Shown piece after piece: positions 5,435 to 41,715 of a stretch of DNA of 64,000 nt. The notes under the pieces were generated by a model. It saw only the letters and a program-made list of their open reading frames with translations, was not told where the DNA came from and did not search any database. How positions within the stretch are numbered: the stretch's first letter is position 1; each line of letters begins with the position of its first letter. This DNA comes from Halorubrum halodurans (GTDB taxonomy: Archaea > Halobacteriota > Halobacteria > Halobacteriales > Haloferacaceae): assembly GCF_002252985.1 (NCBI RefSeq), contig NZ_NHPJ01000060.1, positions 1 to 64,000 of the forward strand, written 5' to 3'. A program made the position numbers and the translations under genes.

Positions 5435-6613
5435 ATGCGTGGACTCCGGATCGGGACCGTCGTCGGCATTCCGGTCAGACTCAACTGGACGTTCCTGATC
5501 GTGTTGCCGCTCTTCGCCTACCTCATCGGCTCGGAAGTGGAGACGATCGCCGGCGTGATGAACGAGACGCTGGGTGCCGGCATCGACACGGCCGCGGTCG
5601 GAGCCGGGGCCACCCCGTGGCTGCTCGGGCTGGCGGCCGTGGTGGGGCTGTTCGGCGGCGTCCTCCTCCACGAGTTCGGCCACTCGCTCGTCGCGATGCG
5701 GTACGGCTACGAGATCGAGTCGATCACGCTGTGGCTGCTCGGCGGGCTCGCGAACTTCGCGGAGTTCCCCGAGGACTGGCGACACGAGTTCTGGATCGCG
5801 GTCGCGGGTCCGATCGTCAGCCTCGGCGTCGGCGCGGTCTGTTACGGCGTGTTCGTGCTCGCGCCCGCGAGCGCGAACGCCCTGCTCTTCGTGTTCAGCT
5901 ACCTCGCGGTGTTGAACGTCGTCCTCGCCGGGTTCAACATGCTCCCGGCGTTCCCGATGGACGGCGGGCGCGTCCTCCGGGCGCTGCTCGCGCGCAACCA
6001 GCCGCACGCGCAGGCGACCCAGCGCGCGGCCGCGATCGGCAAGATATTCGCGTTCCTGATGGGCGTCTTCGGCCTGCTGACGTTCCAACTGCTGCTCATC
6101 GTGCTCGCCTTCTTCATCTACATGGCGGCCTCCGGCGAGGCCCAGCAGACGACGCTGAAGGCGGTCTTCGAGGGCGTCACGGTCGCGGACGTGATGACGC
6201 CCCGCGATCGGCTCCACACGGTGACCGAGACCACCTCCGTCGCCGACCTGATGAGCCGGATGTTCGAGGAGCGACACACCGGCTATCCGGTGATGGACGG
6301 CGGGACCCTCGTCGGCATGGTCACGCTGGAGGACGCCCGCGAGATCCGGGAGGTCGAACGCGACGCCTACCGCGTCGAGGACGTGATGGAGACGGACGTC
6401 GCCTCCGTCACCGCGGGCACGGACGCGATGAGCGCCCTCCAGGTGATGCAGGAGCACGGCGTGGGACGACTCCCCGTCCTCGACGCGAACGGGGAGCTGG
6501 TGGGGCTCATCTCGCGGTCCGACCTGATGACCGCGTTCAACATCATCCAGACCGGCGGCACGCCGAGCGTGATCACCGGCCGGCGCGCCGAGGAGGACGG
6601 GCGGATCCTCTGA
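5435..6613 (+). CDS. Site-2-protease-type zinc metalloprotease (M50) with two CBS domains
   Basis: A 392-residue intramembrane protease. Zinc ligands are His79 and His83 of HEFGH in the second hydrophobic segment, with Glu80 as catalytic base, and Asp176 in the PMDGG motif. About six membrane segments span residues 1-230. A CBS pair (about 245-375) begins TVADVMTPRD and ends LISRSDLMTAF; such pairs usually bind adenine nucleotides and could gate the protease by energy status. TATA-like AGTTAAACGG lies about 30 bases upstream. The substrate is unknown. Confidence 0.9.
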   Translation: MRGLRIGTVVGIPVRLNWTFLIVLPLFAYLIGSEVETIAGVMNETLGAGIDTAAVGAGATPWLLGLAAVVGLFGGVLLHEFGHSLVAMRYGYEIESITLWLLGGLANFAEFPEDWRHEFWIAVAGPIVSLGVGAVCYGVFVLAPASANALLFVFSYLAVLNVVLAGFNMLPAFPMDGGRVLRALLARNQPHAQATQRAAAIGKIFAFLMGVFGLLTFQLLLIVLAFFIYMAASGEAQQTTLKAVFEGVTVADVMTPRDRLHTVTETTSVADLMSRMFEERHTGYPVMDGGTLVGMVTLEDAREIREVERDAYRVEDVMETDVASVTAGTDAMSALQVMQEHGVGRLPVLDANGELVGLISRSDLMTAFNIIQTGGTPSVITGRRAEEDGRIL

Positions 6614-6634
6614 CGGGGTCGTCCCCCGGCCGGC

Positions 6635-8395
6635 TCAGTCGTCCGCGGAGCCGACCGGCGTCGACGTCGACGTCCCGTCCGCGCTCTCGCCGTCGCCGCC
6701 CTCGCCGTCGCCAAGCTCCGAGAGCCGGTCGAGCGCGTCGACCATCGCGACGACGCTCGCGCGCGTGATGTCGGCGTCCGACGCCGAGACCGACACGGAG
6801 CGGTCGCCGCGCGAGAGGTCGACCGCGACCGTGACGACGGCGTCCGTGCCGCCGGTGATCGCGTCGACGTGATACGAGTCGAGCTCGAAGGAGACGGCGT
6901 CGACGCCGCCGCTCTCGTCGGCGAGCGCGGCGCGAACCGCCTCGAGGCCGGCGTCGACCGGCCCGGAGCCGGTCCCCGAGGCGACCCGCTCCTCGTCGCC
7001 GACGCGGAGCCGCACCGAGGCGGTCGGCAGGTTGCCGCCGGAGGTCGCGGAGAGGTCGACCAACTCCACGTGGCGGTCGCGCTCGCGACCCTGGACGTCC
7101 TCGGTGATCGCCAAGAGATCCGCGTCGGTGACGCGTTTCCCGCGGTCGCCGAGTTCCTTGACCCGCGAGACGACCTCCCGGAGCTCGTCCTCGTCGACGT
7201 CGACGCCGTGGTCGGCGAGCGCGGCCGCGACGCCCGCGCGCCCGGCGTGTTTGCCCAACACGAGCCGGCGCTCGCGGCCGACCGTCTCCGGCGGGTACGG
7301 CTCGTACATCGTGCCGTCCTTCAGCGTGCCGTCGGTGTGGATCCCGGACTCGTGGGCGAACGCGTTCGCGCCACACACCGCCTTGTTGGGCGGGACGGCG
7401 ACGCCGGTCACCTCCGAGACGCGCCGGCAGAGCCGATAGAGGCGCTCCACCTCTATCGTCTCCACGTCGTAACAGCGGTCGAGCGCGATCGCGACCTCCT
7501 CCAGGGCCACGTTGCCGGCGCGCTCGCCGACGCCGAGGACGGTGCCGTGGACCGTGTCCGCGCCCGCCTTCAGGCCCGCGTGGACGTTCGTCACGCCGAA
7601 CCCGAGGTCGTCGTGGGTGTGGAGGCTCGTCGGCCCCAGATCGGCGAGCCGGGAGACGACCTCGGCGGTCCGCTCCGGGCCGGCCGCGCCGACGGTGTCA
7701 CAGTAGCAGACGCGGTCCGCGCCCGCGTCGAGGCCGGCACCCATGAGCCGCTCGAGGTACTCGAGGTCGGCCCGCGAGCCGTCCTCGCCGAGCACCTCGA
7801 CCCAGAGGTCGTGCTCTTTGGCGTACTCGACCAGCTCGACGGTGGTCTCGACGACCTCCTCGCGGCTCGAGCCCACCTTCGTCTCGACGTGTTTGTCCGA
7901 GGCGGGCACGACGAGGTTGACGCCGTCGACGCCGCAGTCGAGCGCGCGGTCGATGTCCGACCGGACGCCGCGCGCGAAGCTGGTGACGGTGGCGTCGAGG
8001 CCCCCGCGGGCGACGCGGCGGATCCCCTCGCGTTCGCCCTCCGAGGTACACGCCGAGCCGGCCTCGATCACGTGGACGCCCGCGGCGTCGAGCTCGCGGG
8101 CGACGTCGACCTTGTCCGCGGGCGTGAGCGAGACGCCGGGCATCTGCTCGCCGTCGCGCAGCGTCGTGTCCAGTAGCTGTACCTCCTCGAGGTCGGTGAG
8201 TGGGTTCGGGTTCAAAAGGGTCTCCGTGGTCCGCGTCGGTGTCGGTCGGTCGGTTCCGCCGTCGGAAACGAGAACGGGCGGGTCGGCGTTCGGCGCGTCG
8301 GCTGACGCGGCGTCTGCCGCGGCGTGATCGTTACTGTCGGCGAATTTCACGGCCAGCCGCCGCGAGGCGACTTGCTCTATCCTCCGAACGACCAC
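6635..8395 (-). CDS. cimA: (R)-citramalate synthase / 2-isopropylmalate synthase family protein
   Basis: A DRE-TIM metallolyase condensing acetyl-CoA with a 2-oxo acid for isoleucine or leucine synthesis. The core begins QLLDTTLRDGEQMPG (Arg80, Asp81), metal ligands His259 and His261 lie in SLHTHDDLGFG, and a C-terminal regulatory domain (about 450-560) follows. The VQLLDTTLRDGEQ/EAGSAC pattern matches haloarchaeal proteins I know as CimA better than LeuA, but the split is uncertain. The GTG at 8395 gives a 60-residue, poorly conserved, Ala/Asp-rich N terminus. A TTG at 8215 would give the family's usual length, so the start is doubtful. Convergent with the protease. Confidence 0.75.
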   Translation of the reverse strand: MVVRRIEQVASRRLAVKFADSNDHAAADAASADAPNADPPVLVSDGGTDRPTPTRTTETLLNPNPLTDLEEVQLLDTTLRDGEQMPGVSLTPADKVDVARELDAAGVHVIEAGSACTSEGEREGIRRVARGGLDATVTSFARGVRSDIDRALDCGVDGVNLVVPASDKHVETKVGSSREEVVETTVELVEYAKEHDLWVEVLGEDGSRADLEYLERLMGAGLDAGADRVCYCDTVGAAGPERTAEVVSRLADLGPTSLHTHDDLGFGVTNVHAGLKAGADTVHGTVLGVGERAGNVALEEVAIALDRCYDVETIEVERLYRLCRRVSEVTGVAVPPNKAVCGANAFAHESGIHTDGTLKDGTMYEPYPPETVGRERRLVLGKHAGRAGVAAALADHGVDVDEDELREVVSRVKELGDRGKRVTDADLLAITEDVQGRERDRHVELVDLSATSGGNLPTASVRLRVGDEERVASGTGSGPVDAGLEAVRAALADESGGVDAVSFELDSYHVDAITGGTDAVVTVAVDLSRGDRSVSVSASDADITRASVVAMVDALDRLSELGDGEGGDGESADGTSTSTPVGSADD

Positions 8396-9276: not shown

Positions 9277-9524
9277 GGTGGCGCGCCTCCGAGTGCCCCT
9301 TCGGGGCACGAGGAGCCCGCGAGGGACGCCGCGAGCGCGTGGAACGCGCGAGCAGCGAGGCTGGGGAGGCGTGAGGTGCGGGGCGGTCGCGGTCGGGTGG
9401 GACTCAACGGGGCAGTCGCGAGGACGAAGACGCGTGACGTAAGCACCGCAACGAGCGCATCGAGTCCTCGCGACTGGGGCTTTGGAGGTGTTTTTCCCAG
9501 TCGCGTTCACCGCGCCAGCAACGA
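9277..9524 (+). repeat. Dispersed intergenic repeat, copy A
   Basis: The 430-base gap 9180-9609 contains no gene that I can support. It holds a repeat starting GGTGGCGCGCCTCCGAGTG and containing GAGGCTGGGGAGGCGTGAGG, then a hairpin with 13-base arms (9413-9425 and 9464-9476, CAGTCGCGAGGAC/GTCCTCGCGACTG), and ending CGCGCCAGCAACGA. The same blocks occur in the same order, inverted, at 37586-37853. The hairpin loop shares the sequence AAGCACCGCAACGAG with the other copy. No transposase is linked to it. Confidence 0.8.
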
Positions 9525-17212: not shown

Positions 17213-17330
17213 CCGGCGCGCGCCGCCGAGCGCCCGGTGGGGCGCGAGGAGCCCGCGCGAGGGAGGTCGAGGGGACCCGCCGGCGGGTCCGGCGGGTCAC
17301 CGAGGCCGAGGCTGGGGAGGCGTGAGGCGC
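17213..17330 (+). repeat. Dispersed intergenic repeat, partial copy B
   Basis: The gap between 17183 and 17416 contains a shortened relative of the repeat at 9277 and 37586. It keeps GGCGCGAGGAGCCCGCG and GAGGCTGGGGAGGCGTGAGG at the expected order and spacing but lacks the CAGTCGCGAGGA hairpin. Between the two blocks are GGTCGAGGGGACCCGC and a CCGGCGGGTCCGGCGGG stretch with local palindromes. It looks like a decayed or truncated copy. Confidence 0.65.
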
Positions 17331-17415
17331 GGTCGGGAGGGCGGACGGTCACGGTGCGTTCGCGGTGCGTTCGCCGATCCGGGCGGTCCCGACGCGTCCG
17401 GCGAGCCGAGCCGCT

Positions 17416-37585: not shown

Positions 37586-37853
37586 TCGTTGCTGGCGCGG
37601 TGAACACTGCCAAAGCCCCAGTCGCGAGGAGGCCGTACGCTCGCTGCGCTCCTCACTCGGTCGCTCGGTTTACTCGCTTCCTCGTTGCGGTGCTTGCGTC
37701 ACCTACGGCCTCCTCGCGACTGCCCCTTTGAATCCCACCCTAGGCCGCACAGCACCATACCTCACACCTCCCTAGCCTCGCTGCTCACTTCGTTCGCAGC
37801 ATCTCTCGCGGGCTCCTCGTGCCCCTTCGGGACACTCGGAGGCGCGCCACCGC
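37586..37853 (-). repeat. Dispersed intergenic repeat, copy C (inverted relative to copy A)
   Basis: The 627-base gap 37463-38089 contains no gene I can support. Its first part is the same repeat as at 9277-9524, in the opposite orientation: GGCGCGCCACCGCTCC at the right end and GTTGCTGGCGCGGTGAAC at the left. The central hairpin has 19-base perfect arms (37619-37637 and 37704-37722; CAGTCGCGAGGAGGCCGTA and its complement) around a 66-base loop containing the AAGCACCGCAACGAG sequence in complement. The rest of the gap up to the tRNA holds a chain of hairpins described separately. Confidence 0.8.
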
Positions 37854-37955
37854 TCCGGCGATCGCTCACTCCTTCCCTGTATTGACCACGACCGGAGTCT
37901 GACCTGTCCTCTACGGCGGATTTCAGCAGAGCCGCGAGTTTCAAGTCGCTACTGC

Positions 37956-40848: not shown

Positions 40849-41715
40849 ATGCGCACCGAGGACGGACTCACGATATGTGTTCCGTCCTCGGTCGTCCGGG
40901 AAGCCGAGGACGACCGCGAGGCGACTCGCAAACTCGGCTACGTCGCCCGCGCGGCGGCGGTGTTCCGGGCGGACCGGCTCGTCGTCTTCCCCGACGGGGA
41001 GGGCGAACGACGCCGGGGCGGGGAGTACGTCCGTGCCGTGCTGGGGTACGCCGCGACGCCCCCGGAGCTCCGAAAGGACCTCTGGGGCGAACGCGACGAG
41101 CTCCGGTACGTCGGCGTGCTGCCGCCGCTGCGCGTGCCGTGGCGGACCGGCTCGGCCCCGAACGGGGACGAGTCGACAACACAGGGACTCGTGACCGAGG
41201 TCGGACCTGAAGGCCGCGTCCGGGTCAATTCCCCGCTGCGGGAACACCCGATCTCCCTGCTCGTGCCCTCCGGAATGGAGGTCGAGCGGGGGGAGCGCGT
41301 CACCATCAGGGTCTCTTCGAGAGAACCGGTCCGCGCCCGCATCACCGGGAAGCCGGAGGTCGGCTTCCAGGTCGTGGGTGCGGACCTGTCGGAAGCGCTC
41401 GCCGGCGACGGACTCGCCGTCGCCACGTCGCGACACGGGGAGGAACTCTCCGTGTCGCGGCTCGGCGACCTCGTCGCCGACGCGCGGGAGGCCGACGGCT
41501 ACACCGTCGCCTTCGGCGCGCCGGAACGGGGGCTTCCGGAGATGCTCGGGCTCTCGCCCGAGGACGTTCGGGCGGCCGTCGCCGACGGCCGCCGAGTCGA
41601 ACCCGATCCGGGGTTCGACCTCTGGCTGAACACGATCCCGGCACAGGGCAGCGGGGTAGTCCGAACGGAGGAGGCTCTGTTCGCGACCCTCGGCTCGCTC
41701 ACACTCACGGAGTAA
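40849..41715 (+). CDS. SPOUT-family RNA methyltransferase (C9orf114/MTH1-like)
   Basis: A 288-residue predicted RNA N3-uridine-type methyltransferase. The first segment ICVPSSVVREAEDDREATRKLGYVARAAAVF is the family's start; an OB-like region (about 95-155) is inserted; and the knotted C-terminal domain has VAFGAPERGLPEMLG and TIPAQGSGVVRTEEALFATL. It sits 4 bases upstream of rpl3, a position conserved in haloarchaea as I know it, linking it to ribosome assembly. The RNA target is not known. Confidence 0.8.
   Translation: MRTEDGLTICVPSSVVREAEDDREATRKLGYVARAAAVFRADRLVVFPDGEGERRRGGEYVRAVLGYAATPPELRKDLWGERDELRYVGVLPPLRVPWRTGSAPNGDESTTQGLVTEVGPEGRVRVNSPLREHPISLLVPSGMEVERGERVTIRVSSREPVRARITGKPEVGFQVVGADLSEALAGDGLAVATSRHGEELSVSRLGDLVADAREADGYTVAFGAPERGLPEMLGLSPEDVRAAVADGRRVEPDPGFDLWLNTIPAQGSGVVRTEEALFATLGSLTLTE

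Follow-up and report, generated by a model that had tools for sequence, protein, structure and literature searches.

Halobacteria carry an abundant family of dispersed, non-coding structured repeats that is specific to this class, confined to the chromosome and apparently undescribed so far. That the folded structure of the element is under strong constraint is well supported, and folding appears to be limited to one strand, the plus strand. We regard as an even prospect the explanation that the family is an SMR- or REP-like chromosomal repeat whose plus strand would be recognised in folded form, probably as single-stranded DNA, and whose copies would be homogenised by recombination.

Anatomy and taxonomic spread of the repeat

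The window is the whole stretch of 64,000 nucleotides of Halorubrum halodurans DNA that was analysed. The copies in it have the following parts.

9277-9524, plus strand: copy A, long form
9280-9326, plus strand: H1 hairpin of copy A, CCTCC-GAG-TGCCCC..GGGGCAC-GA-GGAG, with the boundary GCGAGGGA
9327-9356, plus strand: H2 hairpin of copy A, the arm length and sequence of which differ among copies
9357-9376, plus strand: conserved G-rich core of copy A, GAGGCTGGGGAGGCGTGAGG
9413-9476, plus strand: H3 hairpin of copy A, with its arms at 9413-9425 and 9464-9476 and without the apical hairpin that the ortholog has
9508-9522, plus strand: 3' end of copy A, CACCGCGCCAGCAAC, an inverted match to the 5' end GCGGTGGCGCG
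17213-17340, plus strand: copy B, short form, with H1, H2 and core (17308-17327) and without H3
37586-37853, minus strand: copy C, long form, core 37760-37779, H3 arms 37704-37722 and 37619-37637
37854-37895, minus strand: H0 region of copy C, GGTCAATACAGGGAAGGAGTGAGCGATCG, which extends the element on its 5' side in most copies of the window's genome and of the close relative G020
6613-6631, no strand: element-free site at which G020 has an element

Shortly after the window ends, its contig carries two further copies (C76:65147-65443 and 74302). The long form spans ~250-300 bp between the closing ends GCGGTG..CACCGC and consists of H1, a three-tier hairpin; H2, the length of which is highly variable among long copies; the G-rich core; a short linker; and a long H3, opened by CAAAGGGGCAG and closed by CTGGGGCTTTG. 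The near-invariant core motif between H2 and H3 is GAGG(C/T)TGGGGAGG(C/T)(G/A)TGAGG, and short forms end after it. Stems are regularly interrupted by GA/GA internal loops, which are compatible with sheared G.A pairs in DNA or RNA. H0 is an extra 5' hairpin with paired arms of variable sequence and an A(A/G)TACAG-like loop; it is present in most copies of the window's genome (G000) and G020 and missing from a clade whose copies are flanked by TTTATAA.

Copies A and C and their arms are as a sequence-only reading of the window had described them, with a 13-bp arm ending in C-G in copy A and a 19-bp arm with G-C at pair 13 in copy C. The third, shortened copy that it had placed at 17213 is the short form, in which the 5' hairpins and core are present without the 3' hairpin. 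The "conserved loop" that it had seen in copy A turned out to be a deletion junction: in the closest relative, the orthologous copy is 34 bases longer at this point, the extra bases being the apical hairpin, and the deletion is an indel at short direct repeats. The 20-mer GAGGCTGGGGAGGCGTGAGG is a better tag of the family than this loop sequence. Copy A is better folded than dinucleotide shuffles (RNA z -2.98, DNA z -3.27), as is copy C (RNA z -5.14, DNA z -3.39); copy B, folded as RNA, is no better than its shuffles (z -0.76). Copy B sits between convergent genes (DUF1684 and HpcH/HpaI), and its short form is kept at the same place in relatives, indicating that it is stable. A Cas4-like stand-alone gene (PF01930; 8520-9179, minus strand) adjoins copy A. 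The window also holds a leuA-Halobacteria cis-regulatory RNA (Rfam RF03001, 70.2 bits; 8339-8391, minus strand) and a strong Rfam match, in a haloarchaeon, to the L4-Archaeoglobi ribosomal leader (72.3 bits; 41207-41309, plus strand).

The number of copies is far above the three first reported. The core motif, counted with up to two mismatches and with 0 matches to a reversed-pattern control, occurs at 75 places in the window's genome, which is a draft-genome count (3.32 Mb in 143 contigs), and at 104-195 places in five related genomes (G020, 130; G036, 195; G055, 138; G008, 104; G052, 127). All 11 genus relatives first searched carry the element, and identity among copies is mostly 70-91%. 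A covariance model of H3, R1, was built from 64 diverse copies and matched 183 of 242 Halobacteria genomes and 61 of 74 genera; the best 14 scored matches per genome were taken, so that for genera other than Halorubrum the copy numbers are minimum values. Among 197 genomes sampled across the phylum, 25 were R1-positive, each of them from the order to which the window belongs, and R1 matched 0 of the 164 from other classes. Haloglomus, Halorussus, Halobellus and other Halobacteriales share the same architecture, with the apex GACGCAAGCACCGCAG..GAGGAGCGCAGCGAG and the close GGGGCTTTC(G). Rfam searches at the gathering score and at a permissive setting (E up to 5) gave no family match, one chance match aside. 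We found no earlier description in the literature on Halorubrum and haloarchaea, of which subscription papers were thinly covered, so that an earlier description is possible.

A second, smaller repeat accompanies the element. It is ~49 bp long and has the form TCGCCGGC-stem-GCCGGCTGCCAGAG-stem-CTCGCTG, with stems that are variable yet paired, and is nested in hairpins of L028, L029, L025, L004, L023, L024, L063, L069 and L076; in L028 it splits the H1/H2 boundary, and this site is empty in the G020 ortholog. The 3' end GAGCGGCTGGGGCTTTGGCGGTGTTCACCGC of the element, often with TTTATAA, is tandemly repeated each ~54-63 bp downstream of many copies (L032, L034, L036, L050 and L054, and near 188.2 kb on C11 of G011).

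Constraint on the fold and asymmetry between the strands

Selection on the folded structure, for which the sequence-only reading had argued, is well supported. In alignment A1, 25 of the 32 predicted pairs include sequences with both sides changed and pairing kept. A second, independent set comprised 108 distinct sequences; there, 97.4% of cells pair compared to 79.1% when shuffled, and double compensatory changes affect 27 of the 32 pairs, in 578 cells compared to 158 +/- 10 in shuffles. Sliding the partners by 1-3 columns lowers pairing to 29-37%. The 108-sequence alignment was fitted to the model and hence leans towards pairing, but its stems are nearly ungapped, and a raw, ungapped count over the H3 arms agrees with it (1462 Watson-Crick cells compared to 1164 with arms shuffled among copies). 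Compensatory covariation of this kind cannot separate RNA from single-stranded DNA.

In symmetrically constrained palindromic DNA, G.T and A.C mismatches should be equally frequent, since either one appears as the other when the complementary strand is read. Read on the plus strand, the H3 arms contain 57 G.U and 19 A.C, alignment A1 ~32 and 15, and alignment A2 72 and 29, the latter in 50 and 23 distinct contexts (p=0.002). At pair 4, where T-A and C-G alternate among copies, the intermediate state is T.G in 19 cases and C.A in one. H2 by itself has no G.U excess (15 vs 14). The excess may come from a plus-strand mutation bias inside the elements, and it is also expected of RNA.

RNA hairpins usually favour GNRA and UNCG loops. 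The apices of the element, read in its own orientation, are GNA triloops in 191 of ~410 cases, with 6 GNRA and 0 UNCG; under a stricter loop definition there are 152 GNA triloops, and the tetraloops comprise 27 GNYA, 3 GNRA and 0 UNCG. In G020, with both genome strands taken, GNA-type loops make up 57% of hairpins in element zones and 4-5% elsewhere. GNA loops and tandem G.A pairs are found in RNA too. According to a passage in PMC4686876 that cites Hirao and Yoshizawa, GNA and GNNA loops give extraordinarily stable, nuclease-resistant DNA minihairpins. As to RNA or DNA, a choice that the sequence-only reading had left open, the asymmetry between strands and the kinds of loop favour one strand with a fixed polarity, and the loop preferences suggest that this strand is probably DNA.

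The chief rival to DNA is a structured non-coding RNA, or an RNA domain, encoded in many copies, in which a plus-strand transcript would carry the selected fold, perhaps as a scaffold or sponge, and dispersal would be secondary. The very strong covariation fits such an RNA, as do the excess of G.U over A.C on one strand and the unpaired motifs conserved across genera. In one Halorubrum clade, TTTATAA boxes that could serve as promoters precede many copies by ~20 bp; none of 26 copies inspected in the window's genome has a TATA box upstream, only a few in G020 do, and a TATA box as universal promoter was discarded. RNA-type loops are nearly absent, Rfam offers no match, and two traits described below, an orientation without bias towards genes and whole hairpins that are interchangeable, in one copy along with the loop orientation, also count against an RNA. 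We consider this reading possible, if rather unlikely.

Genomic placement and evolution of the copies

The statement that copies lie outside genes with no transposase holds across 1.28 Mb of the nearly complete G020, where 0 of 71 copies are within genes as called by our own codon-usage script, and no Y1 transposase is present in G020. In the same 1.28 Mb, 29 of the 211 convergent gene pairs contain a copy, as do 10 of the 211 divergent and 32 of the 729 tandem pairs, an enrichment between convergent genes (Fisher p=4e-6 against all other pairs, p=0.002 against divergent ones). Neighbouring gene ends are 3' ends in 90 cases and 5' ends in 52, with a median distance to the stop of 104 bp. Within tandem pairs, 13 copies run along the gene strand and 19 oppose it, which is no orientation bias. 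Collectively, copies keep away from promoters, favour convergent gene ends and are indifferent to gene strand. This distribution could reflect a REP-like 3'-end element, whose hairpins would shield or terminate mRNAs at the 3' ends of genes and keep convergent genes insulated from each other. The convergent enrichment, the surplus of 3' ends and the nearby stops are in its favour; however, tandem pairs show no sense preference although the fold signature is on one strand only, and purifying selection against insertion near promoters would give the same bias. We judge such a role improbable.

The element is restricted to the chromosome. The plasmids pHAR01 (248 kb) and pHLAC01 (431 kb), together 0.68 Mb of Halorubrum DNA, contain 0 copies, against ~22 predicted from the density in G008, and among the places listed for G008, 99 of 99 are on its 3.2-Mb contig. 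A collection of 72,556 plasmid records returned nothing beyond three short, weak matches, and a phage collection returned 0. Counts per 100 kb had seemed regular along the chromosome, but gap statistics equal those of random intergenic placement, and even spacing was dropped.

All 11 testable copies of the window's genome, those with both flanks inside the fetched part of G020, are shared with G020 at the same place and in the same orientation. Between orthologs in this 93%-identical relative, hairpins often differ as whole blocks (H2 in L016, H3 in L017 and L029); in at least one copy, L009, the H1 block differs, and the version in the window's genome is a mis-paired hybrid of two cassettes. 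Since whole hairpins are replaced at once in orthologous copies, much of the re-pairing between copies is probably cassette shuffling by recombination. The earlier argument that stems are re-paired rather than decayed, and thus selected, stands for the fold itself; much of the re-pairing, on the other hand, is the swapping of ready-made hairpins between copies and not base-by-base change only. Re-paired stems among repeat copies can stem from such swaps, and covariation among paralogs thus needs an ortholog control. Such block differences are the footprint expected if gene conversion acts among copies and the conserved blocks supply the homology, which is the probable mechanism.

The intergenic site of copy A is occupied differently across the genus: many species have a long form there, L074, L086 and L089 a reversed element, L064, L065 and L067 a 5'-half form, and L068, L079, L081 and L087 no element. 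In L075, orthologous to this site, the arms of H3 are conserved but the loop that they enclose is inverted, which suggests recombination between the arms. This inversion and the copy A indels at short direct repeats are hairpin-driven DNA changes, as they would be if the palindromes were passive and template switching in long inverted repeats kept the arms complementary without selection. That passive origin is very improbable, given that the G.U excess is strand-specific, that unpaired core and loop motifs are conserved across 61 genera and that other hairpins of the genome lack the GNA excess.

One gain was found, in G020, between convergent genes at the site matching 6613-6631 of the window; five other genomes, including the window's, have no element there. 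This single gain was imprecise, with extra flanks and no clean duplication; a clean insertion with target duplication was therefore rejected. MITEs are characterised by the inverted ends of a resident transposon together with a target duplication. Y1 transposase (PF01797) was rejected as mobiliser, with 0 in G020 despite its 130 copies and 1-2 in the other four genomes. In 1.28 Mb searched, no autonomous form turned up in which the 5' and 3' modules would enclose a gene, and no protein partner of the element was found.

Comparison with known systems and proposed role

The SMRs of Haloquadratum walsbyi are short and transposase-free, with inverted ends unrelated to known transposons, no target duplication seen and unexplained mobilisation; the large plasmid PL100 has none, and copies are commonly >95% identical, with strain-specific insertions (PMC3119063). 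Like them, the present element is haloarchaeal, lacks a transposase, is missing from Halorubrum plasmids and is too short for a transposase gene (250-300 bp; no gene called in 71 copies); its inverted ends (GCGGTG..CACCGC) may be of the same kind. In contrast to SMRs, its copies mostly match at 70-91% with divergent stems, and it is mostly shared with the closest relative and class-wide. SMRs are the nearest described class, and membership fails on copy similarity. REPs are single palindromes of 20-40 bp, tied in many genomes to Y1 (RAYT) transposases (PMC3733652, PMC12306157). The element resembles REP/BIME in being intergenic, palindromic, present in >100 copies and biased away from promoters, whereas its unit is a multi-hairpin of 250-300 bp and G020 combines 130 copies with no Y1. 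The distribution is clearly REP-like, but unit size and the lack of Y1 make membership doubtful. In PATEs, IS200/IS605 ends and integron attC sites, a folded single DNA strand of fixed polarity is recognised, and structure is conserved over sequence. The element would share this folded-strand recognition, but it lacks an anatomy of subterminal palindromes only, a TnpA linkage and a cassette array. Large Rfam RNAs are likewise multi-hairpin and covarying with conserved unpaired motifs, whereas the element is dispersed in >100 copies, has DNA-type loops and does not reach the gathering cut-off.

Under the explanation to which we give an even prospect, the plus strand would have to fold, more likely as single-stranded DNA than as RNA, when exposed in single-stranded form during replication, repair or transfer. 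The folded strand would be the unit recognised, by a putative host factor, and the element would act as a site and not as a gene, like Haloquadratum SMRs or bacterial REP/BIME. Copies would be inherited vertically, homogenised and supplied with new hairpins by recombination among them, and new sites would arise only rarely. A more specific form is tentative and in our view doubtful: most Halobacteria would keep chromosome-specific single-stranded DNA folding sites, at which the plus strand forms minihairpins, resistant to nucleases and with GNA/GNNA loops and sheared G.A pairs in tandem, that a putative chromosomal factor recognises by an attC-like logic, and which gene conversion among 100-200 copies refreshes in polyploid cells.

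If right, the family would be among the commonest non-coding features of Halorubrum chromosomes, carried by most Halobacteria though it has no Rfam entry and no description that we found. It would offer a natural test case for selection on a folded DNA strand rather than on RNA, and it would make the traces of gene conversion among repeats visible in archaea that are polyploid. It would also serve as a sequence mark by which the main chromosome can be told from plasmids.
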